Assembly: GCF_029688845.1 (NCBI RefSeq)
Contig: NZ_JARUKW010000008.1
Span: forward strand, 124,001 to 188,000
Direction: 5' to 3'
Origin: Natronococcus sp. A-GB1
GTDB lineage: Archaea > Halobacteriota > Halobacteria > Halobacteriales > Natrialbaceae
Length of the DNA: 64,000 nt
The translations under genes were made by a program, and so were the position numbers. This document shows, in pieces, positions 8,562 to 62,932 of this stretch; position 1 is the stretch's first letter, and each line of letters begins with the position of its first letter. The notes under the pieces were generated by a model. It was not told the DNA's origin. It was given only the letters and a program-made list of their open reading frames with translations, and searched no databases.

Positions 8562-11531
8562 CTATCGCTTGTGGCGGTTCATGCGCTGTTCTTGCCACCG
8601 GTGCTGCCGATCCGACAGCTCCGGAATCTCGCCGTCGTCGGCCACCCGGACGCGACACAGCGTCACCTTCGTCTCCTGCATCTGGGTCTCGCGGTCGTAG
8701 GCCGGCGCGGTCCCGGCGTTGATCGACTCGCCGATCACGAGCGGCCCCAGCCCCTCGGGGACCGTCTCCAGCATACGCTCCCCCTCGAGGATGCCGCTCC
8801 AGTGGTAGGGGGCGAACGCGTGATCGGGGGCGACACGCTCGGTGACGTTGGCCTGGACGATCATCTCGGCGTGGGGCGTCTCGACGACGATCCACTCGCC
8901 GTCCTCGACGCCGAGGTCGCCGCCAACGTCGGGGTGGATCTCGAGGTACATCATCGGCGACCGCGAGGCCGTGCCGAGCGTGCTGCGGGTCTGTGCGGCG
9001 GCGCCCTGGTGTTCGACCTGCCGGCCTGACGTGAGGACCAGATCGTACTCCTCGTGGGCGTCGATGTTGTCCTGCTGGACCCGTTCGTTGTCGAGCTCGA
9101 CGCGCCAGTGGTCCTCGACGCGCTCGTTACAGGGGTAGTCCTCGACGAGATCCGCGCGCGGCGTGACCGCGGGCTCGCGATGGACCGGAATCTGGTCCTC
9201 GAGGTTCCAGGCTTTCATCCGGGCTCGGCCGCGACCCCACGGGGCGTCGGGCTGTGGGTTGTCGAACGCCGCGTAGCGCTCGAGGTCGACGTCGTACCCC
9301 TCGTCGGCAAGCGCCTCAGCGGTGTCGGCGACCGACTGGGACTCGTCCTCGGCGTACTCCACCGGGAGCGTCGCCGCGGCCGGGATCTCGGGGTCGGGCA
9401 GCACGGTCGAGAACAGCGGATACTGCGGGACCCCCTCGAGTTCGCCGTCCCACCACTCCGGCTCGAACGGCTCCCGGAGTTGGTCCTCGGGCTCGACCTC
9501 AGGGTCGTCCTCGTCGACCGCCGCGTCCCACCAGTTCGCACGGAAGTCCATGCCGCCTTCCGCGGGGTGGAGCGACGCGTCGTAGAGGATCGGCGTCCCG
9601 GGGTGGTCCTCGTGCCAGGACGGCCACGGCAGGCCGTAGTAGTCGCCGTCGAGTTCGTCGTACAGCTCGTGGTCCTCCTCGAGGTCGGCCCGGAGATCCT
9701 CGACGCTGAACAGCTCCGCGTGCTCCTGGTGGAGCTTGAGCCGTTCGGGCGTCTGGCCGACGTAGCCGATCGAGCGCGTACCCAGGTTGATCTCCCGCAG
9801 GATCGCCTCGGGCTCGTCGTAGTCGAAGTGCTCGCCGAAGCCGAGATGCTCGGCGAAGTCACACAGCAGCTCCCAGTCCGTCCGGGAGTTGTGTCGCGGG
9901 GTGATCGCCTGGTTTCGCCACTGGAGCTGCCGCCCGGTGTTGGTGGCGCTGCCGGCCTCCTCCATGTTGGTCGCCGCCGGCAGCATGTAGACGTCGGTGT
10001 CGCTGTCGGCGAGCTCGGCGACCTGGTTGGGGTAGACGTCGACGTTGACGATGAACTCGAGTTCGTTGACCGCCTCCCGAACCCGCTTGTACTCGCTGAG
10101 CGAGCCGAGGCCGTGTCCCCAGAAGACCGCCGCCCGGAGCGAATCGGGCTGGTAGATCTCCCACTCGTCGTCGAGGACGCCCTCGAACCAGCGGGCCACG
10201 GTGAACCCGTTTTTCTCCATCAGCTCGGTCGAGTGGAACCGATCGACCAGTTCGTCGTAGCTGATCTCGCCGGAGGTGCTCTCGGTTTCGGTCCAGACGT
10301 TCGTCCAGTGTTCCCAGGCGTCCGGATCGAGCCCGTAGTAGCCCGGCGTGTTCCCGGAGTCGACGCCGAGGTCGGTCGCGCCCTGGACGTTGTCGTGGCC
10401 CCGATAGATGGGCGTGCCGCCGCCGGACTGGGCGGCGTGGCCGAGCGTCAGGTTCAACATCGCGTAGGCGCGGACGTTGCCCGTCGCGTTGTTGTGCTGG
10501 GTTCCGCCCATCGCCCACTCGACGCAGCTCACGTCGGCGTCGGCGAGCGTCTCGGCGAGTTCGGCGAGGTCGTCCTCGGACGTCCCGGTGATATCCGAGA
10601 CCGTCTCGAGGTCGTACTCGGGAAGGACGTCGTCGCGGAACTCCTCCCAGGTCGGGACCATCACGCGGCTCTCGATGAACGCCTCGTCGTGGAGGTCGTT
10701 CTCGACGATGTGGTAGATCAGGCCGTAGATGAACGCGACGTCGGTCCCCGATCGGAACTGGTAGTAGTCGTCGGCGGCGGCGGCCGTCTTCGTGTACCGC
10801 GGTTCGGCGACGATGTGTCTGCCGCCTCGACGCTGGGCCTCCTGGAAGTGCTGCCAGGCGACGGGGTGGCTCTCGAGCGGGTTGTGCCCGATGATGAGGT
10901 TGACGTCGACGTTTCGCATGTCGTTGTTGTTGTTGGTCATCGCGCCGACGCCCCACGTGTTCGCGATCCCGGTCACCGTCGTCGAGTGACAGATCCGCGC
11001 CTGGTGGTCGATGTTGTTCGTCCCGTAGAACGCGGCTAGCTTCCGAATCAGGTACGCACACTCGTTCGTGTGTTTGGCCGAGCCGACCCACATCGTTGCG
11101 TGGGGCCCGGTCTCCTCGCGGACGTCGTTCAGTCGACCCGTGATTTCCTCGAGGATCGCGTCCCACTCCATCTGGGTCCACTCGCCGTCCTCGAGTTTCA
11201 GCGGCTCCTTCAGCCGTTTGTCGGAGTTGACCGACTGCGCGAGCGACGCCCCCTTCGAGCAGAGCCCGCCCCGGTTGATCGGGTTGTCGTCCCACGTCTC
11301 CTGACCGACGAGCGCGTCGTCCTCGACGGCCATCTGTACGCCGCAGCCGACCGAACAGTGCGTACAGACCGTCTTGACCAGCTCGTCGGCCGCGTCGGGA
11401 TCGACGGTGTCGTCGTCCTGTGCCTCCCCCCGTTCGAGGAGCGTTCGCCCCCCGACCGCCGTCGCGAGCGTCCCGGCAGCACCGGCCTTGAGGAACCCCC
11501 GACGATCGAGATCGAGCGTCGATCGTGACAT
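8562..11531 (-). CDS. Tat-exported formate-dehydrogenase-like molybdopterin oxidoreductase
   Basis: This is a 989-residue catalytic subunit. A Tat signal opens the protein (DRRGFLKAGAAGT at residues 9-21). A [4Fe-4S] site follows at C56, C59, C63 and C91, then molybdopterin-binding domains and a C-terminal beta-barrel cap (about 840-960, EIHPDVGGDLGV). The active-site segment is QARICHSTTVTG: C181 takes the selenocysteine/cysteine metal-ligand position and is followed by H182, the Cys-His pair of formate dehydrogenases. This argues for formate oxidation, or CO2 reduction, with Mo or W bis-MGD, rather than DMSO or nitrate reduction. It is the first gene of a three-gene operon. The divergent upstream region (11532-11783) is AT-rich and promoter-like. 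Substrate assignment still needs a tree or an assay. Confidence 0.85.
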   Translation of the reverse strand: MSRSTLDLDRRGFLKAGAAGTLATAVGGRTLLERGEAQDDDTVDPDAADELVKTVCTHCSVGCGVQMAVEDDALVGQETWDDNPINRGGLCSKGASLAQSVNSDKRLKEPLKLEDGEWTQMEWDAILEEITGRLNDVREETGPHATMWVGSAKHTNECAYLIRKLAAFYGTNNIDHQARICHSTTVTGIANTWGVGAMTNNNNDMRNVDVNLIIGHNPLESHPVAWQHFQEAQRRGGRHIVAEPRYTKTAAAADDYYQFRSGTDVAFIYGLIYHIVENDLHDEAFIESRVMVPTWEEFRDDVLPEYDLETVSDITGTSEDDLAELAETLADADVSCVEWAMGGTQHNNATGNVRAYAMLNLTLGHAAQSGGGTPIYRGHDNVQGATDLGVDSGNTPGYYGLDPDAWEHWTNVWTETESTSGEISYDELVDRFHSTELMEKNGFTVARWFEGVLDDEWEIYQPDSLRAAVFWGHGLGSLSEYKRVREAVNELEFIVNVDVYPNQVAELADSDTDVYMLPAATNMEEAGSATNTGRQLQWRNQAITPRHNSRTDWELLCDFAEHLGFGEHFDYDEPEAILREINLGTRSIGYVGQTPERLKLHQEHAELFSVEDLRADLEEDHELYDELDGDYYGLPWPSWHEDHPGTPILYDASLHPAEGGMDFRANWWDAAVDEDDPEVEPEDQLREPFEPEWWDGELEGVPQYPLFSTVLPDPEIPAAATLPVEYAEDESQSVADTAEALADEGYDVDLERYAAFDNPQPDAPWGRGRARMKAWNLEDQIPVHREPAVTPRADLVEDYPCNERVEDHWRVELDNERVQQDNIDAHEEYDLVLTSGRQVEHQGAAAQTRSTLGTASRSPMMYLEIHPDVGGDLGVEDGEWIVVETPHAEMIVQANVTERVAPDHAFAPYHWSGILEGERMLETVPEGLGPLVIGESINAGTAPAYDRETQMQETKVTLCRVRVADDGEIPELSDRQHRWQEQRMNRHKR

Positions 11532-11997: not shown

Positions 11998-13992
11998 ATG
12001 GCTCGAGGGGCGACACTGACGGCACTTGTTTGTCTGCTTCTGGTAAGCGGGCTCGTTGGCCCGCTCGCCGGAACGGCGATGGCCCATTCGGACGGTGTCA
12101 CGGGAGATCAACTCGACGACGCGGCCCACGCCTCACCGTCGGCCGACGACACTGCCGGGTCGGCCGCGGGCGATCAGGTTGTCGGTACCGAGGTCGACCA
12201 GTTGATCGAGAGCGTGATGGCCGAACACGACATCGCGGGCGCGTCTGCTGCGGTCGTCGAGGGTGACGAACTCGTCCACGTCGAGGGGTACGGCGACGCC
12301 GACGCCGCGAACGGAACTTCGGTCGACCCGAACGAGACGTCGTTCATGGTCGGCTCGGTCGGCAAGCTGACCGTCTGGACCGCGGTGATGCAGGGTGTCG
12401 AGAACGGCGACCTCGAGCTCGACGAACCCGTCGGCACCTACCTCGAGAACTACTCCGTCGAGGGCGAGGACGAGGTCACCCTCGAGCATCTCGGGACCCA
12501 CACGCCGGGGTACGAGGATCGCCTCCAGGGGCTGTTCGTCGACGACTACGCGGAGGCCGCCAACTGGGAGCCGAAACTCGAGCGGGAGCTGCCCGCCCAG
12601 GTCAGACCGCCGGACGAGACGGTCGCCTACTCTAACCACGGCACCGGGCTCGCGGCGCTGGTCGTCCAGGAGGCCGTCGGCGAGCCGTTCGAGGAGTACG
12701 TCGACCGCGAAATCTTCGAGCCGCTGGCGATGGAGGGGGCGACGATCGAGCAGCCCGTTCCCGACGACCGAGAGCCGGTCTCGCAAGGCCACGTTCCGAC
12801 CGAGGACAGGTTCGAGACGGACGACCCCGTCATCATCGGCGTTCCGCCCGCGGGCTCGATGAGCGCCACCGCGACCGATATGGGGAACTTCGCGATCGCG
12901 GCGCTGCAGGACGGCGCGTTCGGGGACGACCGCGTCCTCGAGCCCGAGTCGGCCGAGGCGATGCTCGAGCAGCGGGCGACGAACCACCCCGACGTCGGCG
13001 GCGTCGGCTACGGCTACATGCTCGGCGAGCGCGGCGGCGAGGCCCTCGCCTGGCACACCGGCGGCACCGAGTACTTCAACACGCTGTTCGTCCTGTTTCC
13101 CGACCACGACGTCGCGCTCTACGTGAGCTTCAACACGGCCGGCAGCGGCGCCGCGCTGGCCGATGTTCTCGACGGCTTCATCGAGCAGCGTTTCGACGGC
13201 GAGGCGAGCGAGGAACTCGAGCCCGATCCGGCCACTGCCGACCGCGCCGACGCGTACGAGGGCGAGTACCGGAGCACCGGGTTTCAGACGACCCCCGAGA
13301 AGATCGTCGGGCTCGCCGACGCCCACCACGTCTCCGTGACCGACGAGGGGTACCTCGAGCTGGGATCACCCCTGCTCGGCGGCGAGACGCGCTGGGTCGA
13401 GCTCGAGCCCGGCGTCTTCGCGCCCGACCCCGACGAGGACGACGCGATGTTGACCTCGAGAGTGGTCATCGAGGACGGGGCCCTCTACACGGACGCGCCC
13501 GCGGCTCCGTACGAGGCGGTGTCGTGGTACGAAACGGCGACGGTTCAGCTCGGCCTTGCGGTCGTCGCCCTCGGTGCGGTGCTCTCGACGCTTCTGGTCT
13601 GGCCGATCAGCGCCTATCGGAGCCGCGGGTGGGGACGGATGCGGACCCACCTCACTCGCCCGCGGCTGGCGATCCTCGCCGGTGCCGGCCTCCTCGCCGC
13701 GTTCGTCGTCGGTCTGCTCGCGAACGGCATAGGCGACCCGAATCAGTTCGTGTACGGCTACACGCCGTGGCTGCGGCTCACCCTCGCGTTCTTGCTCGGG
13801 GTTCCGCTCGCGGCCCTGGTCGCGCTAGCGTTGGTCGGCCTCGAGTGGTACCGGGTGGCCACGGCGCGAGATCTCGAGGCGAGTTCGACGACTCCGCTGG
13901 GTCTGGCGTACCTGACCGCGCTGACAGTCGCCCTGCTCGTCTTCGCCTGGCAGCTGTGGTACTGGAATCTGCTGACGGCGGTATGGTTTTGA
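11998..13992 (+). CDS. exported serine beta-lactamase/PBP-fold hydrolase with C-terminal membrane domain
   Basis: This 664-residue protein has an N-terminal secretory segment (residues 6-29, ending in TAMAHS). An S12-type beta-lactamase/esterase domain follows, with the catalytic tetrad motif SVGK (S120, K123), the YSN motif (Y211-N213) and HTGG in place of KTG. After a beta-rich linker, about four hydrophobic helices span residues 500-664 (including a segment ending in WYWNLLTAVWF). The catalytic domain would sit outside the cell, anchored by its tail. Archaea lack murein, so a D-aminopeptidase, esterase or peptidase role is likelier than antibiotic hydrolysis. ATG 11998 is chosen because it starts the signal segment. 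Confidence 0.85.
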   Translation: MARGATLTALVCLLLVSGLVGPLAGTAMAHSDGVTGDQLDDAAHASPSADDTAGSAAGDQVVGTEVDQLIESVMAEHDIAGASAAVVEGDELVHVEGYGDADAANGTSVDPNETSFMVGSVGKLTVWTAVMQGVENGDLELDEPVGTYLENYSVEGEDEVTLEHLGTHTPGYEDRLQGLFVDDYAEAANWEPKLERELPAQVRPPDETVAYSNHGTGLAALVVQEAVGEPFEEYVDREIFEPLAMEGATIEQPVPDDREPVSQGHVPTEDRFETDDPVIIGVPPAGSMSATATDMGNFAIAALQDGAFGDDRVLEPESAEAMLEQRATNHPDVGGVGYGYMLGERGGEALAWHTGGTEYFNTLFVLFPDHDVALYVSFNTAGSGAALADVLDGFIEQRFDGEASEELEPDPATADRADAYEGEYRSTGFQTTPEKIVGLADAHHVSVTDEGYLELGSPLLGGETRWVELEPGVFAPDPDEDDAMLTSRVVIEDGALYTDAPAAPYEAVSWYETATVQLGLAVVALGAVLSTLLVWPISAYRSRGWGRMRTHLTRPRLAILAGAGLLAAFVVGLLANGIGDPNQFVYGYTPWLRLTLAFLLGVPLAALVALALVGLEWYRVATARDLEASSTTPLGLAYLTALTVALLVFAWQLWYWNLLTAVWF

Positions 13993-14737
13993 CACTTTCG
14001 CCGACATGCGTGCGTGGAGTGCGGCTCATCATCCGGGATCCGTTGCTGGTGTGTCGATGACCCGTCGACTATCGCAATAAATAACACATATATAAAACAA
14101 ATATGATAGGAGTCTGCTGTTATGGCGCACTATCGCAGCAAGGTGGACGCCAGTCCGAGGGAGACAAATAATCGATTTTCGACCGTCCAGGGGTCTGAAT
14201 TCGTTCGGCTAAAGCCGAACCTCTCGTTCGGTTCCCGATCGATTCCTTCTAGCGGACTCCATCGGTAGAGTCGCGACTTCAATGGCTCTACAATCCGCTT
14301 AGACGAGAGAAAACCTACTCACGAGCGGTCGTCCTCGCTCCGGAGTTAGTCGGTGCAATGAAGTGTCAGCCCACAAATAGTAGGCCGGAAGCATATGGAA
14401 AATTATATTCAAACCTATTATCGAAACTGACTCCACGAAAAATATGAGTTCTGATAGTTCATGTTTCGTCGGCCCTGCGCTGTCGACCGGGACCGTATTC
14501 GGTATGGTCGTGCCTCGTATTACGATAGTATGACTGTAATACAACCACCGAACGTCTCGGTTTCGGTCGGTCGTTCCCCGTTTCGTTTCGCACATCGAAA
14601 GCGACAGTGGAATCGGAGTGCGTTTCGGTCTCGCCCGGCTTTCTTCGGCGCGTTTCGGCGAAGCGGATGCGAGACGGACACGATACAGTTTTCGCAGTCG
14701 TGAAATGGTTAAGTAGCCCGATGCTCTCTACTGACCT
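13993..14737. other. 745-bp AT-rich intergenic region
   Basis: No gene is supported. The stretch contains long AT-rich runs (14075-14110, 14380-14460), a perfect 18-bp palindrome at 14203-14220 (separate entry), and the promoter of the IclR gene just before 14738. A 98-codon frame on the minus strand (14299-14595) lacks any recognisable motif and is not accepted. The mixed composition suggests old mobile-element debris. Confidence 0.4.
14203..14220. repeat. perfect palindrome, possible solo IS200/IS605-type end hairpin
   Basis: GTTCGGCT-AA-AGCCGAAC is a perfect 8-bp stem with a 2-base loop. It has the same design as the terminal hairpins of the two IS1341-type elements in this window (stems of 8-9 bp with a 2-base loop), and is followed by cctctcgtt, resembling the flank of the hairpin at 26172-26189. 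It may be the relic of an excised or decayed element. No transposase remains beside it. Confidence 0.45.
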
Positions 14738-29722: not shown

Positions 29723-29796
29723 AAGGGTGATGTAGCAGAACCTCAGGGGGGTCACTCGAGGACATCGTTGACAAGTTCCGGGCTTCGACCGGCGGA

Positions 29797-29882
29797 CTAT
29801 AGTAGCAACTGAAACTGTTTGCACATCGATCGCACAGTTGTCGTGCGATCGAGTGCGCACTGACTGTCAGTGGTTACTATAG
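29797..29882. mobile_element. 86-bp MITE, copy 1
   Basis: The element has imperfect 18-bp terminal inverted repeats beginning CTATAGTA and an internal hairpin around cgatcgcac/gtgcgatcg (29827-29851). A second copy of exactly the same length is at 57846-57931; by eye they differ at 9 of 86 positions. It has no coding capacity. It ends one base before the stop codon of the zinc-ribbon gene at 29884, so it sits in that gene's 3-prime flank. No clear target duplication is seen here. Confidence 0.75.
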
Positions 29883-29883
29883 G

Positions 29884-30036
29884 TTAGTTGAACCACTCGC
29901 CATACTCCTCGCAGGCGCCACACGTCGCGTGTGTCACCCACGCGTCGCCGTGGTCGTGTTCGGTCGGCGCAACCCGGGAGAGCTGGAGGTTCGTGGATCC
30001 GCACTCGGGACACTGCGGGGGGATCGCCTCGTTCAT
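29884..30036 (-). CDS. 50-residue zinc-ribbon mini-protein, paralogue A
   Basis: The minus-strand frame opens MNEAIPPQCPECGSTNLQLS and ends CGACEEYGEWFN. The two CxxC pairs (residues 9-12 and 39-42) make a zinc ribbon. The protein at 38646-38798 has the same length, the same Cys spacing and many identical residues, so they are paralogues. This small family with its EHDH/DHDR acidic-His middle is common in haloarchaea; function is not known. The stop lies against a MITE. Confidence 0.78.
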   Translation of the reverse strand: MNEAIPPQCPECGSTNLQLSRVAPTEHDHGDAWVTHATCGACEEYGEWFN

Positions 30037-50939: not shown

Positions 50940-51113
50940 CGACTGCCAGTCATTCGTCTCGCACTCGATGAATACGACTGGGCCGCCAAACGCGACACCG
51001 TCCAGGTCTACCGAACAGGCCTTCGGTCGAGTCCTCGACGCGATGGTTACGCCCTCGAGCAATGGGTGTCGACCTGGCGCGACCGCGACGGCGTGTCCGC
51101 TGGCCATCCGTAG
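50940..51113 (+). pseudogene. C-terminal fragment of a DUF7342-like regulator gene
   Basis: The frame reads RLPVIRLALDEYDWAAKRDT, closely matching RLPVVRAALNEYDWATKRDT near the end of the intact regulator at 51417-51920, and then continues for about 37 further codons (YALEQWVSTWRDRDGV) to a stop at 51111-51113. It has no start codon or helix-turn-helix part. The extra tail suggests it came from a longer family member. Confidence 0.6.
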
Positions 51114-51356
51114 CACAGTCAAAACTGCTGCCTCGAGCGGCTACATCAGTTCGATCCGTTTTCGAGACTCCGCGATCAGCTCCGCTTCGGTCAGTTCGCC
51201 GTCTGCGTACTCGCGCAGTGTGTCACCGTCGAGCCTGGCGGTAGCGAGTTTCGCACCGGACGTGTGTGCGAGCGTGGCCTTGAACGTCTCGATCTGGCCG
51301 AAGAACCCCTCGGCGTCCTCGATTCCCTCCTCGAGGGCGGACGGGAGTTCGTCGAG
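51051..51356. repeat. direct repeat copy A (about 306 bp)
   Basis: This block is near-identical to 52481-52785 in the same orientation, both starting gccctcgagc and ending at gtcgag. Copy A lacks the rest of the lipoprotein gene. Small indels (for example near 51094-51100) keep the copies from being identical. Weaker similarity extends about 60 bp further left. Confidence 0.8.
51141..51356 (-). pseudogene. C-terminal fragment of the 52570 lipoprotein gene
   Basis: The minus-strand frame matches the last 72 codons of the lipoprotein at 52570-53118: LDELPSALEEGIEDAEGFFG through GDTLREYADGELTEAELIAE, and ends RIELM instead of QIELT. No signal peptide or start is present. A few substitutions are conservative, so the fragment diverged after being copied. 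Confidence 0.7.
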
Positions 51357-51416
51357 CGGTGTCTAACATATTTCCACTACCTTGGATATATATTCTAGTA
51401 GACCGTAGGCACAGCT

Positions 51417-51920
51417 ATGCCGGGTGACAGCCGACAATCGATGACCCGTGGGGAGCGTGTTCGTGCTGCAGCGCGAACACTGCGTACACCTCGCACTGCC
51501 CAGTGGGTTGCTGACGAAACGGACGTCTCGGTGAAAACCGCACAGAAGTACCTCGAGCAACTCGTGGAGGACGACGTTCTCCGAAAAGTCAAACAGGGAG
51601 GCCAGACGCTCTACGGCATCGATCAGCTCATGGCAACCTATCGTGAGGTGGCGACGCTCCAGCGGGAGCACGATCGAGAAGAGCTCACGGCTGCGCTCGA
51701 GTCGATGCGAACGCAAATCGCGGAGTGGAAAACCTCGTACGACGTCGAGACGCCGGGGGAACTTCGGGCAAGCATCGGCGACCTCGAAGACACCGACGAG
51801 ATGGAAGACCGCCGCGAGATCGCCGGCGAATGGGAACATCTCGCCGACAGATTGCCAGTCGTCCGCGCCGCGCTCAACGAATACGACTGGGCCACCAAAC
51901 GTGATACCCTCTCGGCGTGA
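51417..51920 (+). CDS. winged-helix protein, probable antitoxin of a TumE-type pair (DUF7342-like)
   Basis: This 167-residue protein has a winged helix near its N-terminus (PRTAQWVADETDVSVKTAQK then YLEQLVEDDVLRKV) followed by GGQTLYGIDQLMATYREVAT and a helical tail (WEHLADRLPVVRAALNEYDW). It lies 3 bp upstream of the TumE-like gene. In haloarchaea this regulator family often precedes such a gene, so it is the likely antitoxin and autorepressor. An internal ATG at 51441 is an alternative start. The protein resembles the stand-alone regulator at 32518. Confidence 0.78.
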   Translation: MPGDSRQSMTRGERVRAAARTLRTPRTAQWVADETDVSVKTAQKYLEQLVEDDVLRKVKQGGQTLYGIDQLMATYREVATLQREHDREELTAALESMRTQIAEWKTSYDVETPGELRASIGDLEDTDEMEDRREIAGEWEHLADRLPVVRAALNEYDWATKRDTLSA

Positions 51921-51923
51921 CGA

Positions 51924-52367
51924 ATGGGGCTTTCAGGAACGATCGATAGTGCGGTCTACGAGGGACTCAGGGACGTCTTGCAGCGGTATCCAGTCGTGGC
52001 GACTGTCGCGTATCAACCGGACAGTATCGTCAAAAAGTCCCTCCGGGCACGGATTGATCCCGCCCGTGTCGTCCCACCAACTGGTCCGGAGCAACCTCGG
52101 GTGGACGTCGAATGGCGGTTCGGTCGGAACGAGCAGTTCTACCGGATCCACTACGCCGACCCGAACACGGGGTTCAACTGTGGCTGGCACCGCGATGAGG
52201 ACCATCCTGAGCTAGGACCAGTCCACTTCCAATACGAGATTCCGGGAACCGATCAGAGTCAGCACGAACCTGCGAGCTTCGAGAAGGATGCCCCCACAGA
52301 AATACTCTGGAGTGCTCTCGATCGCTTGTTCGAAACACAAATTATTGAGCTGATGAGTGAGAGGTAA
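51924..52367 (+). CDS. TumE-like (DUF6516) putative toxin
   Basis: This 147-residue protein carries the compact His-rich core of the family: VEWRFGRNEQFYRIHYADPN then TGFNCGWHRDEDHPELGPVH. It has an N-terminal helical region (SGTIDSAVYEGLRDVLQRYP) and a C-terminal helix (TEILWSALDRLFETQIIELM). Family members are annotated as toxins of TumE/TumA-type toxin-antitoxin systems; the target is not read from this sequence. It follows the winged-helix gene by 3 bp, a tight two-gene operon. Confidence 0.75.
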   Translation: MGLSGTIDSAVYEGLRDVLQRYPVVATVAYQPDSIVKKSLRARIDPARVVPPTGPEQPRVDVEWRFGRNEQFYRIHYADPNTGFNCGWHRDEDHPELGPVHFQYEIPGTDQSQHEPASFEKDAPTEILWSALDRLFETQIIELMSER

Positions 52368-52480
52368 TACGAACAGCGAGACCAACGGGATCTATCCTCC
52401 CTCCGTAGTTAGTTACCCAACATCGGCTACACCGTCTTCCGAACGGTAGTGAGGTCGGGTCCTTCCTCGTTGACGGTCGC

Positions 52481-52785
52481 GCCCTCGAGCGGTGGGACGG
52501 TGGCCTAGTGCGACCGCGACGGCGTCCGCTGGCCGTCCGTAGCGCAGTCAAAACTGCTGCCTCGAGCGGCTACGTCAGTTCGATCTGTTCGCGAGATTCC
52601 GCGATCAGCTCCGCTTCGGTCAGTTCGCCGTCTGCGTACTCGCGCAGCGTGTCGCCCTCGAGCCGGGCGGTGGCGATTTTCGCTCCGGACGTGTGTGCGA
52701 GCGTGGCCTTGACCGTCTCGATCTGGCCGAAGAACCCCTCGGCGTCCTCGATCCCCTCCTCGAGGGCGGACGGGAGTTCGTCGAG
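52481..52785. repeat. direct repeat copy B (about 305 bp)
   Basis: This is the second copy of the block described at 51051-51356, here containing the C-terminal third of the intact lipoprotein gene and about 90 bp beyond its stop. The copies lie 1.4 kb apart in direct orientation and bracket the winged-helix/TumE operon, so recombination between them would delete it. Confidence 0.8.
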
Positions 52786-53118
52786 ATCGTTGCGGAGCCG
52801 CGCCAGATTCTTCGTTGTCGCCGCGAGCACGACCGTCAACGTTCGACCGCGGCGTCGGAACTCCTCGATGGAGACGACCGCGCCGCTCTCGAGTTTGACC
52901 TCCTCAGGGACGAAGTCGGGAACGCCGTTCGGGCCGCCCTGTCCCCGGCCCTGACCGGGATGGTCGTCGTTTCGGTTGCCCTGCCCGCCGCTGTTTCCGG
53001 GATTGTTGTCGGCCGCGCCACGTCCTGCGCTGGTCTCCGACTGGAGATCGCCGACACAGCCGGCAACGAGCGTCGTGAGCGCACCAGTACCACCGAGAAG
53101 GACTTTTCGTCTGTCCAT
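52570..53118 (-). CDS. lipoprotein with Gly/Asn-rich linker
   Basis: This 182-residue exported protein starts MDRRKVLLGGTGALTTLVAG followed by Cys, a Tat-like signal with lipobox, so it should be lipid-anchored. A disordered Gly/Asn/Gln linker (about residues 30-65) leads to a folded helical region (EVKLESGAVVSIEEFRRRGR, LRNDLDELPSALEEGIEDAE, LREYADGELTEAELIAESRE). I know no family for it. Its 3-prime third is duplicated at 51141-51356. Confidence 0.72.
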   Translation of the reverse strand: MDRRKVLLGGTGALTTLVAGCVGDLQSETSAGRGAADNNPGNSGGQGNRNDDHPGQGRGQGGPNGVPDFVPEEVKLESGAVVSIEEFRRRGRTLTVVLAATTKNLARLRNDLDELPSALEEGIEDAEGFFGQIETVKATLAHTSGAKIATARLEGDTLREYADGELTEAELIAESREQIELT

Positions 53119-55917: not shown

Positions 55918-57318
55918 ATGAGTGACACACCACGCCGGACGTTGCTGAAACGGATCGGAATCGCCGGGCTGACGACCGCCGCGCTCGGGACGGGTGCGGC
56001 GGCCGGACGCGGCCCGAACCATAATACGCCGAACACGCCTGACCAGGCGAACGCGCGGGTACGCGGCCGTACGGATCTGCTCGGACACGAACTGCCCGAA
56101 GGCGAGAAGCCCCGCTATACGTTCGGCACCACCAGCCCCGACGGGATGTGGGGCGGGGTCAGCAGCTTCCCCAGCAGCCACTTCTCGACCGGGAGCGACA
56201 GTAACGTCGTCGCGACGCTGTACGACCTCTCGGACCTCGAGAACCCGACGGTCGCCCACGAGCTCGAGTGGCCGGTCGAGAACCACCGGTCGAACCATAT
56301 GCGGTTCGACGGCACCCGCGACGGACTCTACTACGTCACCCACGAGATGGACGAGGGCGCAGAGGAGCCGCTGGGGATGTCGGTGGTCGACTTCGGCTGG
56401 GGCGAGGGCACTCCGGAGGAGCCCGAGGTGCTGGCGACGCTCGAGACGCCCAACACCGGCTCGCACACCAACGCCGAGCATCCCGAGGACACAGTGGTCT
56501 ACATGATCGACAAGGCCGACAGCGAGCCGGGCGTGATTCCCGTCGACGTCAGCGAGCCGGGCGATCCGGAGCAGACGGGTCCGTTCGGCCCCGACGGCTT
56601 CTGTCACGCCCTCGAGGTTGACCCGATCCGGGAGATCCTCCACTGTGCGTACATCGGCGGCGACTTCGTGGGCTACGTCATCCTCGACATCTCCGAGGAC
56701 CCGCTGCATCCCGAAGAGATCGGCCGGTTCGACTACGACGACCACCCCGACTACACCGAGGTCGGCGAGCCGGGGTTCGAGGACTGCCACCAGGCCCACT
56801 TCGATCCCAACCGGGACATCGCGATCGTCGGCGACGAGCTGTTCGGGGAGCTGCCCGGTGGGAAACACGTTTTCGACATCGGCTGGGGCGAGGGATCGCT
56901 CGAGGACCCACAGCCGATCAGCCACTTCTACTCGCCCGACGCCCGCGAGCAGGACGTCGGCGTCTGGACGACCCACTTCCACGACATCCTGCAGGACGGC
57001 GACGAGACGCTGCTGGTCGACGGCGGCTACTCGCAGGGCTTTTGGGTCGCCAACATCACCGACCCCGAAAACCCCGTGGCGACCGAGCGCTTCGCGACCG
57101 ACCTCGAACTGGACCGAGCCGACACGCGCCACTCGCCGGGAACGGCCCCCTACAACTGGTCGGCGGTGTGGAACGACGAACGGGAGTTCGCCTTCTCGAG
57201 TGATACCCTCACCGGCGCGTACACGTTCTCGGTCGACGCCCGCCCCGCCCGCGGGGAGGACGGCGGCGGTCCGGACTCGCACTACGACCTTGAGGCGATC
57301 CTCGAGCGATACAGCTGA
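55918..57318 (+). CDS. Tat-exported LVIVD-type beta-propeller protein
   Basis: This 466-residue protein starts MSDTPRRTLLKRIGIAGLTT, a Tat signal. The mature part has repeated short strand units typical of LVIVD/choice-of-anchor propellers: VVATLYDLSDLENPTVAHEL, VIPVDVSEPGDPEQTGPFGP, YVILDISEDPLHPEEIGRFD, FWVANITDPENPVATERFAT. About six or seven units make one propeller. Conserved His residues (NHRSNHMRF, FEDCHQAHFDP, TTHFHDI) might bind metal. A role as an extracellular binding protein is likely; no enzyme activity is visible. The last 23 bases are duplicated at 61137. Confidence 0.8.
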   Translation: MSDTPRRTLLKRIGIAGLTTAALGTGAAAGRGPNHNTPNTPDQANARVRGRTDLLGHELPEGEKPRYTFGTTSPDGMWGGVSSFPSSHFSTGSDSNVVATLYDLSDLENPTVAHELEWPVENHRSNHMRFDGTRDGLYYVTHEMDEGAEEPLGMSVVDFGWGEGTPEEPEVLATLETPNTGSHTNAEHPEDTVVYMIDKADSEPGVIPVDVSEPGDPEQTGPFGPDGFCHALEVDPIREILHCAYIGGDFVGYVILDISEDPLHPEEIGRFDYDDHPDYTEVGEPGFEDCHQAHFDPNRDIAIVGDELFGELPGGKHVFDIGWGEGSLEDPQPISHFYSPDAREQDVGVWTTHFHDILQDGDETLLVDGGYSQGFWVANITDPENPVATERFATDLELDRADTRHSPGTAPYNWSAVWNDEREFAFSSDTLTGAYTFSVDARPARGEDGGGPDSHYDLEAILERYS

Positions 57319-57324
57319 GCCGTC
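57296..57324. repeat. 29-bp direct repeat, left copy
   Basis: The last 20 coding bases plus stop of the propeller gene and 6 bases beyond are repeated without mismatch at 61137-61165, in the same orientation. The copies bracket about 3.8 kb with the M14 carboxypeptidase gene. This looks like an integration scar or a duplication at insertion. Confidence 0.8.
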
Positions 57325-57484
57325 CAGCCCTCTTTTCGATCGGTACTGACGGCCGCGAGTTCGGCATCTCTGCTTGGAGCTTGCGTCGTTGTACCGGAGC
57401 GGTGTTCACTCGAGTGTATCTTCGGTCAGTTTAGTGCTCTCGACCGTGCTGGTGATCGTTGGGATAGCCAGTTTGATTTCACCG

Positions 57485-57751
57485 TCAGTGCAGAACGAGA
57501 GGTAATTGGCTGGTGTCAACTGCCCCGCCCACGGTGGGGCGGGGAATCGGCCTTGGTTTTCTTTTGAACGAGCGAGTTAGTTGGCAGAAGTAGAGCCCGT
57601 GGGCGTTGTATTCCGGCCACGCTTTGTGAGCGGCAACGGCGAGGATGCGATCTTCGCAGCCGTTTCCGAGATTTTTCTCATAGAGGAAGCGAACGAGGCC
57701 TCGAAGAAGGACCGCCTCTCGTTCGATAGAGGCCTCGAGGGCTGTTCGGCG
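57485..57751 (-). pseudogene. degenerate open frame of unknown origin
   Basis: A minus-strand frame without a start codon runs through LLRGLVRFLYEKNLGNGCED and ILAVAAHKAWPEYNAHGLYF. The sequence looks protein-like, with mixed residues and no Arg-rich shadow bias, but I cannot assign a family. It runs into the hairpin at 57523-57544. It is probably the remnant of a gene carried or broken by mobile DNA. Confidence 0.35.
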
Positions 57752-57845
57752 CTACCGTGATTGCGTGCCAAGGTTGCTCTGCGGCATCGACACGCTGATC
57801 GAGCTTCGTTGGGCGGCTATGATCCGTCGTGAGGACGACGAGGTA

Positions 57846-57931
57846 CTATAGTAACAACTGAAACGGTTTGCACACCGATCGCACAGCCATCGTGCGATCG
57901 GGTGCGCACTGACTTTCAGTGGCTACTATAG
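57846..57931. mobile_element. 86-bp MITE, copy 2
   Basis: Same length and layout as copy 1 at 29797-29882: ends CTATAGTA / TACTATAG, internal hairpin cgatcgcac/gtgcgatcg. By eye the copies differ at 9 of 86 positions. A 3-bp sequence gta stands on both sides (57843-57845 and 57932-57934), consistent with a target duplication. The parent transposase is not in the window. Confidence 0.78.
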
Positions 57932-58109
57932 GTATCGCTTGCCTCGTGCCGGAGGTCAATCGGATTCAGACCTGCCCGATACTGCCGGGGACGATTCTGA
58001 TCCCACACGATCACGCTTCTATTGATTGCGTTCGGAACTAAGCTACAACAACCTGCGTTTAGCTCTCAAAAGGGCTATTTTACCTCTTCAAAAAGAAATT
58101 GGGGGTTGG

Positions 58110-60953
58110 TCAGTCAGTTGACCGCTCGCCACGAGGTTCACCGACGCTTGCGACTAATTCGCCGTCAACATAGCGGCGCTGCTCGCCTCCGATCGCGTTG
58201 CAAAGCACCGTATGGCCCATCGTGGAGACGGCGTGATCGGCCATGCCGAACTGATGGAGATATTCCTGGTTTGCTGGGGGGAGAACGGAGGCAATAACGT
58301 AGATCGTGCAGTCACCGACGGCCAGCGTCCCAAGCCCAACTCCGGATAGGTCCTCGGCTTCGTCGTCTCCAAACGTACCGATAGTAGTCCCACCGGCAGC
58401 TTCGAAGGCCTCTTCATCGACTGCATAGACGGGTTGGTCGTCTTCGTCCGGAGTGTATCCGACCTGTGGTGCCTTCCAGAGTTCGTGCTGGATGTCACGG
58501 ACTCCCTCGAGAAGCGGGTGGTCAAGATCGCGGTTATAGACATTGACGAAGGTGAGACCGAACGAGTCGATATCGCCCTCACTGATGTCTGCCGCGTCTC
58601 CGACATCGAGTGCAGCCAGCAAGCGCACACCAGCGTCGGTAAGCACCAGGTCTCCGCCCGACTCTACGAACGCTTCGACCGCACGAACGTACGATGGATC
58701 TTCACAGGCCATATCCCCAGAAACGACCAGTGTGCCGTACTGCCGATCTTTGCCGTCGAGAAGCTCCCTAGAGCGTACCTCGTCGACTGTTAGTCCGTCT
58801 ATCTCATCATCCGCAACGAACTCATCGAGTTCTGCGAAGAACTCCATCGGATTGGCCGAGTACTCTCGCTGGTAGAAACCCATGATCTCTTCGGGATCGA
58901 GGTGTTCGTCATCGCTGTCGATGATGACGACTTCGACGGTGACCTCTCCGTCGCCGTCGAACTTTATCACCCAGGTCCCCTCCGGAGGGTCAGAAATGTA
59001 GAACTCAGTGTTGCCGCTGTGGCAACACTCCGAGTGGCCCAGCTCATCGGTGTCGAGTTTCCGGACGACGTCTCCATCCGGATTCACGATTTCTACGACC
59101 CCGTCTGCGTCGTCAGCGGGCTCGACGTGCACCGAGAGACACCGGGTCTGTGGGTGTACGGTCTCTTCGATACGGCCGTCAAAGCCGGGCAGGACTTCGG
59201 CTTGCTCTCGCGTGATTTCGACCGGCGTTTCGTGACCGGGGCCCGCTTCGTGGCCCGGACTCTCATCGGTGTGAGTGAGGTCCGCCGACGATCGTGTAAG
59301 CTCGTCGGACGCGACGTAGGCCACATCCTGGCCGCCGGTGTCAAGCGTTGCGTCGACATCTGCAGCGGTCAGTTCGGCGAACACCTCCATCTGGATGCGA
59401 TAGGCCGTCTCGAGGTGGCGATGCATGTACGGGTACCACTCCTCGCCACCGCCAGCGAAGACCATTTCTGGGACGACGGCAATAGCGTCGAGTCCGCCGT
59501 CTTCACGCGGTTGTCCTGCCCAGTCGAGCAGTCCACCGGAAATGTTGTACCCCAGCGTGTCGTCGACAGTTCCGTAGTCGAACAGATTCTGTAGCTCTTG
59601 GTCGGGTTCGTCGAACCAGTCCTCTAAGGCGCGCTCGACGTCGGCCTCGAATCCATCACGCGCACCCAGTTCGGCCTCCATGCGTTCGCCGATTCGAACG
59701 TTACCCTCTTCGAGAAGGTGGACCCCCCGGTGATCTCGTTGTGCGTTGGCTTCGAGATTCCAGACGAAGTCGAACTCCTCTCGCGTTCCCATCTGGTGGT
59801 AATCGACGAGATACCGGACGTTTTCGTACTGGCGCAGGAACTCGACCGTCGCGATCGCGTCGGGAACGATATCGTAGTACTCTTCGGGTGCATCCGCAGG
59901 TTCGCCGGGGTAGTTGTTCGGATCGACCCACCCGATCGTGGGGTACTGGCGATTCGTGTCGTTACTCGAGGCGTTCCCTCGAGTGAACTCGAGATACTCC
60001 GGATCGACCAATTCCGGAAGCCGGCTGAAGTAGCCATCCGGATTGACGAACAGGAACAGGATCGCGATCTCATCGAGCAAGTCCGTTTGATCGGCGTTGC
60101 CGGTTACGAGATCCTCGATGTACCGTGTTCCCGTTTCCTCACCGGCTCGCTCGCGTCCGTGAATATTGACCTCGTAGATCGCCTTTTCTTTCGCTTCGAA
60201 CGACTCACGATCCTGAACGTCGTTGGTCACCTCGACGAGAAACACGTCTTGTGGATCGGTTTCATCACCAGTACGGACGTTCTCCCAGCCGGGACTTTGA
60301 CCCACTTCACGAACGTTGAGTCGATCGGGATACTGCTCTTGGAGATACGAGAGCCCGGCATACGACTCCGCGTTGTTCATATAATCGCGAGCGTCCTCGA
60401 CAGCCGGAAACACTCGGTCACTATACGTGTCATCTTCCGGCCAGTCATCGAGTTTCCAGAACGGATTGGCACCGATCGAATGATCGATGTGCTCGACACT
60501 GTCCGCGTCGACGACGTTCTCGAGGACAGTTTCGAGTTCCTGGGCAGTGAGGTAGGCGTGTGCCGCGGGAGTCGGTTCCTCGCGGACCACTGCTTTCGGG
60601 GGTGCGCTCTCCGTTTCGATGTCCCAGCCGGGCTCGCAGAACTCTCCTTCGAAGGCTGAGAGCGCGGTTGTATCTGTGAACTCGAGGACGAGATGGACCT
60701 CGTACTCTTCAGGAGTAGCATTGACAGCGAACTGCGCTTCGTCCGTCATGCTGTCGTGCGTTACGTCACCAGCAACGACACTCGGAAGTGCGAGTGCAGC
60801 GCCGGTCGCTGCTGCGACGCTGAGGAACGTTCGGCGGGTTACTCCCCCACCGGTGAAGGCATCCGGTTCGAGTTCTGTTGCCTCTTCGTAGGTGTATCGG
60901 TCCGACTCGTCGTACGATTCTCCCCGCTTGTTCTGTGACTTTCGGCTAGCCAT
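58110..60953 (-). CDS. large Tat-exported M14 zinc carboxypeptidase
   Basis: This 947-residue exported protein has a Tat signal with RR at 40-41 (GVTRRTFLSVAAATGAALAL) after a polar leader. The M14 catalytic domain (about 190-560) has zinc ligands H265 and E268 in NIHGRERAGEE and H386 in VDYHQMGT, and the carboxylate-binding N334-R335 in DTNRQYP. A beta-sandwich (about 600-710) and a ThuA/GATase-like alpha/beta region (about 740-900, TLVVSGDMACEDPSYVRAVE) follow. It would trim peptides outside the cell. Codon and base use look more AT-rich than neighbouring genes, and the gene sits between two 29-bp direct repeats, both suggesting transfer. Confidence 0.88.
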   Translation of the reverse strand: MASRKSQNKRGESYDESDRYTYEEATELEPDAFTGGGVTRRTFLSVAAATGAALALPSVVAGDVTHDSMTDEAQFAVNATPEEYEVHLVLEFTDTTALSAFEGEFCEPGWDIETESAPPKAVVREEPTPAAHAYLTAQELETVLENVVDADSVEHIDHSIGANPFWKLDDWPEDDTYSDRVFPAVEDARDYMNNAESYAGLSYLQEQYPDRLNVREVGQSPGWENVRTGDETDPQDVFLVEVTNDVQDRESFEAKEKAIYEVNIHGRERAGEETGTRYIEDLVTGNADQTDLLDEIAILFLFVNPDGYFSRLPELVDPEYLEFTRGNASSNDTNRQYPTIGWVDPNNYPGEPADAPEEYYDIVPDAIATVEFLRQYENVRYLVDYHQMGTREEFDFVWNLEANAQRDHRGVHLLEEGNVRIGERMEAELGARDGFEADVERALEDWFDEPDQELQNLFDYGTVDDTLGYNISGGLLDWAGQPREDGGLDAIAVVPEMVFAGGGEEWYPYMHRHLETAYRIQMEVFAELTAADVDATLDTGGQDVAYVASDELTRSSADLTHTDESPGHEAGPGHETPVEITREQAEVLPGFDGRIEETVHPQTRCLSVHVEPADDADGVVEIVNPDGDVVRKLDTDELGHSECCHSGNTEFYISDPPEGTWVIKFDGDGEVTVEVVIIDSDDEHLDPEEIMGFYQREYSANPMEFFAELDEFVADDEIDGLTVDEVRSRELLDGKDRQYGTLVVSGDMACEDPSYVRAVEAFVESGGDLVLTDAGVRLLAALDVGDAADISEGDIDSFGLTFVNVYNRDLDHPLLEGVRDIQHELWKAPQVGYTPDEDDQPVYAVDEEAFEAAGGTTIGTFGDDEAEDLSGVGLGTLAVGDCTIYVIASVLPPANQEYLHQFGMADHAVSTMGHTVLCNAIGGEQRRYVDGELVASVGEPRGERSTD

Positions 60954-61355
60954 GATGTATTACTCCCCATGTGCCTGGTATTGGCACACAAGAATTACGC
61001 CCACATGTTGCTATTTAGTCGCTGGCTTTCTATACGAAATTTCCGAGGTCTGAACCTTCAAGTAGCTATCAATCGTAGAAATTATTTCGTGTGTTCACCC
61101 TTGACCGCATACTTCTCAGACGATAGTTGATCGAGACGATCCTCGAGCGATACAGCTGAGCCGTCGATCGTCGTGCGTTCGGTGCCCTCCGAGAGCCAGC
61201 TGTGGCGTCCGATACTTCCGGACATCCTGCTCGAGCAGTTGGTTGCTCACCGTCCGTATCGTATTCCCGCTACGGCCGCGCTAAGCCCCTTGTCCACGCG
61301 AAAGCCCACCCTCACGAACGGGGTCGTCAGACCGAACGAAGTAGGGTGGAGAAGT
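60954..61355. other. 402-bp non-coding region with right repeat copy
   Basis: The left 130 bp are AT-rich and hold the minus-strand promoter of the carboxypeptidase gene. The 29-bp repeat follows at 61137-61165. A stem (ccaccct 61306-61312 / agggtgg 61343-61349) is visible further right. No gene is supported. Confidence 0.45.
61137..61165. repeat. 29-bp direct repeat, right copy
   Basis: An exact copy of 57296-57324, including the end and stop codon of the propeller gene, here standing alone in non-coding DNA. It marks the right edge of the inserted or duplicated segment. Confidence 0.8.
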
Positions 61356-61718
61356 TCACACCGACCACAGCTCTTCGATTCGCGTCTCGACTGCAGCAAG
61401 GACCGTCGAGTAGACGTCAAGCGGGTGCAGAGAAGGCAAGGAGAGATCGGTTACCTCGTCAGAAGTTGGTGGTTGGTGAACGTGCACGCGGGTGTTGTGC
61501 GAATTTGGATGGCGATCCCAGCGACACTCCCACCGAGCCCCGTCGAGCAGTTCTTCGACGTAGTGTACCGAGAAATCTCCGGTTGTGAAATCCGCCGTCA
61601 CGGCCGGTGTCTCACAGGCCAGCGCCTCGAGCACCGTTCGAAGACTCCCGTCCGCAAGACTCGGGAGCGCAAACAGGGTCGCCTCGCTGACGGGCTCTGC
61701 GTTTCGGAACGTCGCCAA
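61356..61718 (-). CDS. hypothetical protein with His-rich RWDRHPNSHN motif
   Basis: This protein of about 120 residues has LPSLADGSLRTVLEALACET at the N-terminus, a central FTTGDFSVHYVEELLDGARW then ECRWDRHPNSHNTRVHVHQP, and LSLPSLHPLDVYSTVLAAVE near the end. The charged His core resembles the TumE/DUF6516 toxin core at 51924 in style, but no family is claimed. No ATG opens the frame: TTG at 61718 is the best visible start, so the true N-terminus is uncertain and the gene may be truncated. It stands alone without a winged-helix partner. Confidence 0.55.
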   Translation of the reverse strand: MATFRNAEPVSEATLFALPSLADGSLRTVLEALACETPAVTADFTTGDFSVHYVEELLDGARWECRWDRHPNSHNTRVHVHQPPTSDEVTDLSLPSLHPLDVYSTVLAAVETRIEELWSV

Positions 61719-61835
61719 TACGGTTTTGCTCGACGCACCGCGGGCCGACGGCGGAGTCAGTTTCCCCTCGACAAGCCTTCGGCTCGAGAGTCAAAAGACA
61801 ACTCGTTCGCTCACGTCACTGAACGGGCGTCCCGT

Positions 61836-62567: not shown

Positions 62568-62764
62568 GATCCCGACGGATGTGTTCACGATATAATAGGT
62601 TTTTGGACTGATGAACGTTCCAGCAGCGGGACCGTCGGCGCCGATTCGGGCTCTCGGTTGCGTGGGTGCAACGTTCCGGGATCGGCGCCGACTTCCGGCG
62701 GGGACGGATCGCGGACGCGAGGCACGAACGGGTTCGGCTCGAGGGCGACCCGCTCGCGGTCGTC

Positions 62765-62932
62765 TCACTCGAGATCGTCCCAGTCGATGAACTCCCGGAC
62801 GCCCTCGCGGCTGTCCCGCGTCGGTTCATAGCCCAGTAGACGGTTGACTTTCGAGCTGTCGGCGTGGCTGTGTTCGACGTCGGCCTCGCGAGCCGCGGTG
62901 GACTCGAACTCGAGCGTTCGAGCGTAGCTCAT
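62765..62932 (-). pseudogene. C-terminal remnant of an NAD-dependent sugar epimerase
   Basis: A 55-codon minus-strand frame contains AREADVEHSHADSSKVNRLL and GYEPTRDSREGVREFIDWDD, the characteristic end of UDP-sugar epimerases/dehydratases of the short-chain family (PxRxGDxxxxxAD-kA..LLGY-P..s.eeGL pattern). The Rossmann half is absent upstream. It is a leftover of a sugar-nucleotide gene next to the nucleotidyltransferase, so the glycan locus has been cut here. Confidence 0.7.

Follow-up and report, generated by a model that had tools for sequence, protein, structure and literature searches.

The M14 locus of Natronococcus sp. A-GB1

The window analyzed here is a 64,000-nucleotide stretch of the haloarchaeon Natronococcus sp. 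A-GB1 (contig NZ_JARUKW010000008.1, positions 124,001 to 188,000), in which an intact gene for a secreted beta-propeller-like protein is followed by a segment carrying a gene for a predicted exported M14 zinc carboxypeptidase (Table 1). The propeller protein has no match among the Pfam and NCBIfam profiles, and its orthologues are 94% identical in Natronococcus amylolyticus DSM 10524, which among named genomes is the closest at this locus, and 90% identical in Natronococcus sp. A-GB7. The peptidase belongs to the M14 family, since its match to PF00246 (E 4.4e-15) scores 56.5 bits against a curated cut-off of 21.6, and its C-terminus shows a weak DUF4350-like match. The segment, which measures 3.8 kb here and 3.4 kb in N. 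amylolyticus, is poorer in GC (57.3%) than the window (63.8%) and the propeller gene (67.5%).

Table 1. Features of the M14 locus and of comparable sites. Positions are those of the window unless a relative's locus is named.
Feature	Position	Strand	Remark
Tail copy in the second example, distal	51006..51356	-	354-bp direct repeat, 88% to 52434-52785
Inserted DUF7342 wHTH gene and partner (pair 1), second example	51365..52370	+
3' tail and downstream flank of secreted-protein gene 52570-53118, second example	52434..52785	-
Tat-type secreted beta-propeller-like protein gene, intact, insertion target	55918..57318	+	ORF
R1, gene-tail copy of the 33-bp repeat	57292..57324	+	last propeller codons, TGA stop, 6 bp beyond
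Inserted segment	57325..61132	.	present in N. amylolyticus, absent from A-GB7
Decayed pseudogene of a 333-aa protein	about 57410..57955	-	intact ORF in L126 831-1832
Palindromic hairpin element within the pseudogene	about 57510..57563	.	no counterpart in N. amylolyticus
MITE	57845..57933	.	second copy at 29796-29884, 90%; absent from N. amylolyticus
Predicted exported M14 zinc carboxypeptidase gene, 947 aa	58110..60953	-	PF00246
R2, distal copy of the propeller gene tail	61133..61165	+	repeat comparison
R-type right flank	61166..61218	+	related to DNA directly after the A-GB7 propeller gene and to flanks of further R copies
Remnant of pair-2 partner gene (DUF7342 wHTH pair)	61354..61589	-	in N. 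amylolyticus and A-GB7 pair complete, then another R copy
N. amylolyticus R1; R2	L054 10889-10923; 14308-14342		34/37 identical
N. amylolyticus M14 gene	L054 11282-14128	-
N. amylolyticus DUF7342 wHTH gene and partner (pair 2)	L054 14538-15505	-
N. amylolyticus third R copy, R3	L054 15638
A-GB7 pair 2	L055 11707-12675		then extra genes, R3 at 14015
G002 AstE-like tail repeat	L167 10325-10659 / 12653-12989		340 bp, 86%
A-GB7 epimerase tail repeat	L068 9245-9491 / 11037-11290 (G006 C25)		254 bp, 81%

Besides the peptidase gene, the segment carries a decayed gene, whose intact counterpart is found in another Natronococcus genome (G002); neither the decayed frame nor the 333-residue protein matches a Pfam family. 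A MITE and a hairpin are also present, the latter appearing by inspection only to resemble a PATE or IS200-605 end. Both elements are later additions, and their absence from N. amylolyticus indicates that they are unconnected with the original insertion event. The two copies of the MITE in the window are 89 bp long and 90% identical, with the ends ACTATAGTAACAACTGAAA and TTTCAGTGGCTACTATAG.

The segment is bracketed by two direct copies (R1 and R2) of the end of the propeller gene, which agree at 32 of 33 bases (97%) and share a perfect core of 29 bp (57296-57324 and 61137-61165). When the window was shuffled 100 times with its dinucleotide frequencies preserved, the longest exact direct repeat to occur within 10 kb was 15.9 bp on average and 19 bp at most; thus, the length of R1/R2 is well above chance expectation. 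Moreover, R1 and R2 are the only sites of the 29-mer in the whole 4.5-Mb genome when up to three mismatches are allowed, and a reversed control pattern gave none. An earlier note, made from the sequence alone, had described a perfect 29-bp repeat around a segment with a more AT-rich M14 gene, a MITE, a hairpin, a decayed frame and no integrase. This description was confirmed, with the correction that the full repeat spans 33 bp and that its copies differ at one of them.

A consensus fold over six copies of R contains 18 pairs, none of which shows a compensatory change. As pairs with covariation were lacking and the stretch matched no Rfam family, the idea that R is a folded site of the attC kind or a non-coding RNA was rejected, as was a tRNA-associated site, the window containing no tRNA. 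To the right of the pair-2 remnant, a glycosyltransferase-like fragment (61590-61720) is fused directly to the truncated partner gene, a deletion junction that is absent from N. amylolyticus and A-GB7.

Occurrence of the insertion in related genomes

The locus could be compared with those of two relatives. In N. amylolyticus (L054, contig C34 of genome G001), the propeller gene is followed by R1, the M14 gene, R2, a DUF7342 wHTH gene with its partner (pair 2) and R3, so that three R copies stand in a row; this order looks like tandem accretion. The same occupied layout in a second species indicates that the insertion is real and inherited. In A-GB7 (L055, contig C56 of genome G006), a single propeller tail leads directly into an R-type flank and pair 2, with no M14 gene. 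This is the empty site, with one repeat copy, that is expected of a tyrosine-recombinase element or a cis-mobilizable element (CIME). Other propeller genes of Natronococcus also lack both an M14 gene and a second tail.

The flanking sequences were further compared among the R copies. R2, R3 and the A-GB7 R1 share about 50-100 bp of common flanking sequence, to which the DNA following R1 in the occupied genomes bears no relation: for N. amylolyticus, the flank after R1 gave z values of -0.2 to 1.7 against R-type flanks, and the R2 flank gave 3.4 against the A-GB7 R1 flank and 7.9 and 9.6 against the R3 copies. Such relations form the pattern to be expected if the segment entered precisely where the 33-bp tail ends on its right. 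In its near part, the R2 flank resembles R3 more than the A-GB7 R1, suggesting that exchange between R copies may blur the history.

These comparisons bear on the main proposal of the earlier note, that DNA had inserted at the end of a gene and duplicated it. The footprint is borne out by the occupied site in N. amylolyticus and by the empty site in A-GB7, where the tail occurs once and is directly followed by the type of flank that lies after R2. Relatives with the same gene order and no repeat, which the note had named as a refuting case, were not seen. The other case that it had named, similarity due to a duplicated gene tail, is correct in that R2 is a tail copy, but this copy is part of the insertion scar.

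Relatives of the M14 gene are also found at other loci. A third species (G003) has a homologue, 88% identical at the protein level, at an unrelated locus with arcS on one side, an NmrA-like gene on the other and no flanking tail repeat; the window resembles this copy between 58098 and 61089, limits that fall just inside R1 and R2. No M14 gene lies behind arcS in the other eight genomes. Among 17 Natronococcus relatives of the M14 gene (one of them at a contig end), none is bracketed by a gene-tail repeat, and three have duplicated protease neighbors instead of repeats.

Search for a recombinase and for other users of the border

No integrase, recombinase or transposase gene was found in the segment or its neighborhood, and all 13 tyrosine-recombinase matches in the genome lie on contigs other than that of the segment, in agreement with the observation in the earlier note that no integrase is present. 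In addition, none of the eight integrase genes in 1.2 Mb of the genome sampled by region is bracketed by similar near repeats.

The core of R (a 24-mer, at most three mismatches) was searched in 125 Natrialbaceae genomes, comprising the three Natronococcus genomes that bear the locus and 122 others. Hits occurred in seven genomes: two, three and four sites in A-GB1, N. amylolyticus and A-GB7, respectively, and a single three-mismatch site in each of the other four, which by estimate is about chance level. Nothing was found with the border in IMG/VR and phages, haloarchaeal plasmids gave no convincing match, and the weak hits of the plasmid search were all in bacteria. The border, which the earlier note had suggested looking for elsewhere, is thus confined to this locus family across the genome, the 122 other Natrialbaceae, IMG/VR, phages and plasmids. 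Neither an integrase inside the segment nor an integrase-bearing relative or related element with the same R border was found.

The earlier reading is therefore supported only in part: the insertion scar is borne out, whereas an integrative element or a cassette mobilized in trans is not supported, the border being confined to this locus family and no recombinase gene lying in or near the segment. An active small mobile cassette was rejected, there being no second copy in the genome and no other carrier in the collections searched. A DDE or composite transposon was also rejected, as no terminal inverted repeats pair the ends, the repeat is 33 bp long and the MITE is internal and younger. The same applies to an integron cassette array, since no integron integrase is near and R lacks compensatory pairs.

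Other gene-tail duplications in Natronococcus

Several further inserts bracketed by copies of a gene tail were identified. Within the window, pair 1, another DUF7342 wHTH gene with its partner, lies between two copies of the 3' tail and downstream flank of a secreted-protein gene (Table 1); at the corresponding site, N. amylolyticus (L054), A-GB7 (L055) and G003 (L168) have a single tail copy and no pair. In G002 (L167, contig C126), a pair and a secreted-protein gene are inserted behind an AstE-like gene (9605-10474), whose tail is repeated at the far end. On contig C25 of A-GB7, two further R copies (RA and RB) bracket a second DUF7342 pair of the pair-2 type, and the whole unit stands behind an epimerase gene whose own tail is repeated beyond it. 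In G000, an O-antigen-ligase-like gene on contig C14 has a 224-bp tail copy (79%) about 2 kb off. In every one of these other cases, the far copy is the gene tail. Around the O-antigen-ligase-like gene, an overlapping chain of direct repeats of 309, 224 and 399 bp was observed (C14 3284-9702 and 18187-18585, L240), and this region looks like a variable island.

A survey of local direct repeats in the same 1.2 Mb showed that, outside tandem paralogues, three loci (four repeat pairs) span a stop codon and one spans a start codon, these being small numbers. A tail-duplicating habit built into the DUF7342 pairs was rejected. Only one of 18 plasmid copies is clearly bracketed (L174, 109 bp, 75%; the 90th percentile of random controls was 41 bits), and the mostly unbracketed state of the plasmid pairs implies that the habit is not inherent to the pair.

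Possible origin of the insertion

Insertion of the M14-bearing segment at the 3' end of the propeller gene is well supported; we infer a recombinase as its causative engine, a circular intermediate and the polarity of the event (insertion versus loss). The reading placed first, tentatively and with a probability a little short of even, is a fossil, integrase-less att-type (CIME-like) islet, which would have been inserted within the 33-bp tail by a since-lost recombinase in an ancestor shared with N. amylolyticus. A segment of 3.4-3.8 kb with the M14 gene and the now-decayed gene would have integrated through recombination inside the stretch formed by the last codons, the stop and six bases beyond, which would have kept the propeller gene whole and left a spare tail copy at the far end; site-specific att-type recombination by a now-absent recombinase is the most likely route. 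The layouts of the relatives and the M14 gene at an unrelated locus in G003 suggest that the insertion preceded the split from N. amylolyticus. The target tail may earlier have accepted another module, the DUF7342 pair that N. amylolyticus and A-GB7 carry flanked by R copies. Tyrosine-recombinase elements have repeats of 8-60 bp and target 3' ends, which fits a 33-bp repeat over a gene end (PMC5704250), and archaeal elements also target the 3' parts of protein genes (PMC6563490). On the other hand, no engine and no convincing other user of the border emerged from the searches above, the eight integrase genes of the sampled 1.2 Mb are not bracketed by near repeats of this kind, the other tail copies (224-354 bp, 79-88%) exceed usual att cores and R has no covarying fold.

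Such considerations leave the att-type reading only slightly ahead of a homology- or repair-driven insertion, and the two remain close. According to the latter, which is a serious possibility, a circle or fragment from a relative in which a propeller tail adjoined M14 recombined at the resident tail by a single crossover or microhomology-guided repair, with no dedicated recombinase; the resident tail could serve as the landing site because every relative has a propeller tail. The longer tail copies around the other inserts (354 bp at 88%, 340 bp at 86%, 254 bp at 81% and 224 bp at 79%) are in its favor, and microhomology end joining is the main route of plasmid-break repair in Haloferax volcanii, although the homology left there was 3-5 bp (PMC2700283). 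A length of 33 bp is nevertheless short for homologous recombination, and no donor in which M14 adjoins the tail was found. Position 9 of the repeat is C in both copies here and T in both copies of N. amylolyticus, a hint that R1 and R2 later exchanged sequence, but this pattern involves one or two sites only. It is rather unlikely that the M14 islet, pair 1, the RA-pair 2-RB unit and the G002 and C14 cases all reflect one undescribed process, in which small modules are added without an integrase behind resident Natronococcus genes and the 3' tail is duplicated at the far end over a length of 33 to about 350 bp; the further inserts with tail copies of 224-354 bp in the window and its relatives suggest that the scar may stem from a process that has acted repeatedly.

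The empty site of A-GB7 could also reflect loss, the islet being ancestral in the clade and deleted through recombination between short direct repeats. Repeat-bounded indels that leave one copy are common in Haloquadratum walsbyi (PMC3119063), deletion could equally account for a single copy, and the locus is known in three genomes only. Yet the gene end and stop codon at R2 have no gene body attached to them, which means that the duplication necessarily came first, and the other propeller genes of the genus, without M14 or a second tail, also speak against loss; this explanation is unlikely. Less probable still, and very unlikely, is R2 as the last remnant of a duplicated and decayed propeller gene rather than a recombination scar. 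The genus has many propeller paralogues, and RA on contig C25 of A-GB7 resembles a decayed propeller tail. However, only 43 bp, with nothing propeller-like in them, part R2 from the upstream sequence of M14 that is shared with G003 (up to 61089), which argues that R2 is not a decayed second gene, and an identity of 97% across exactly 33 bp with none outside is unlike a decayed gene.

Comparison with known systems

The closest parallel to the att-type reading is offered by CIMEs, which are integrase-less remnants with attL and attR sites (PMC5704250). The M14 islet resembles them as a short insert between direct repeats, the 3' end of an intact protein gene forming one of the two, with stacked modules and no recombination genes, but it is archaeal, no integrase-bearing kin with the same border was found, and its origin from a larger element is a supposition. 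The indels of H. walsbyi, which have direct repeats of 4-20 bp and were read as deletions, are likewise strain-specific haloarchaeal segments that carry the repeat at each end, a relative having just one copy of it (PMC3119063); in the M14 islet, by contrast, the repeat is 33 bp long and tied to a stop codon, and further cases span hundreds of base pairs. The integrated elements of thaumarchaea, which are proviruses, casposons and similar elements, share the archaeal host, the 3'-distal target in a protein gene and verification by an empty site (PMC6563490), whereas the M14 islet comprises two genes, one of them decayed, and no integration gene. Integron cassette arrays, including those of archaea (PMC9668308), also consist of modules parted by a recurring repeat, as in the R1-M14-R2-pair 2-R3 order, but no integron integrase lies near the islet and R lacks a conserved attC-like fold.

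The scar of the M14 islet is ordinary in kind and cleanly bounded. It represents a precisely bounded case of haloarchaeal gene gain, dated by relatives, behind an unbroken gene and with no visible recombinase. What deserves to be followed is the possibility that several tail duplications share a mechanism; if they do, this mechanism would provide a simple and testable route for gene turnover behind variable surface and secretion loci of haloarchaea.

Additional observations

Other repeats and gene fragments were noted in the same regions. At the start of the window, long and diverged direct repeats (37-1055 and 1842-2788, 68-75%) are probably tandem paralogues. In N. amylolyticus, adjacent duplications of 89 and 136 bp, perfect or near-perfect, occur at L054 18291-18469 and 18972-19244, one of them with an undetermined residue in frame, and they are likely to be assembly joins in that contig. 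Finally, a C-terminal piece of a sugar epimerase is stranded beside a nucleotidyltransferase gene (window 62756-62915), and similar pieces are found in L068 and on C14.
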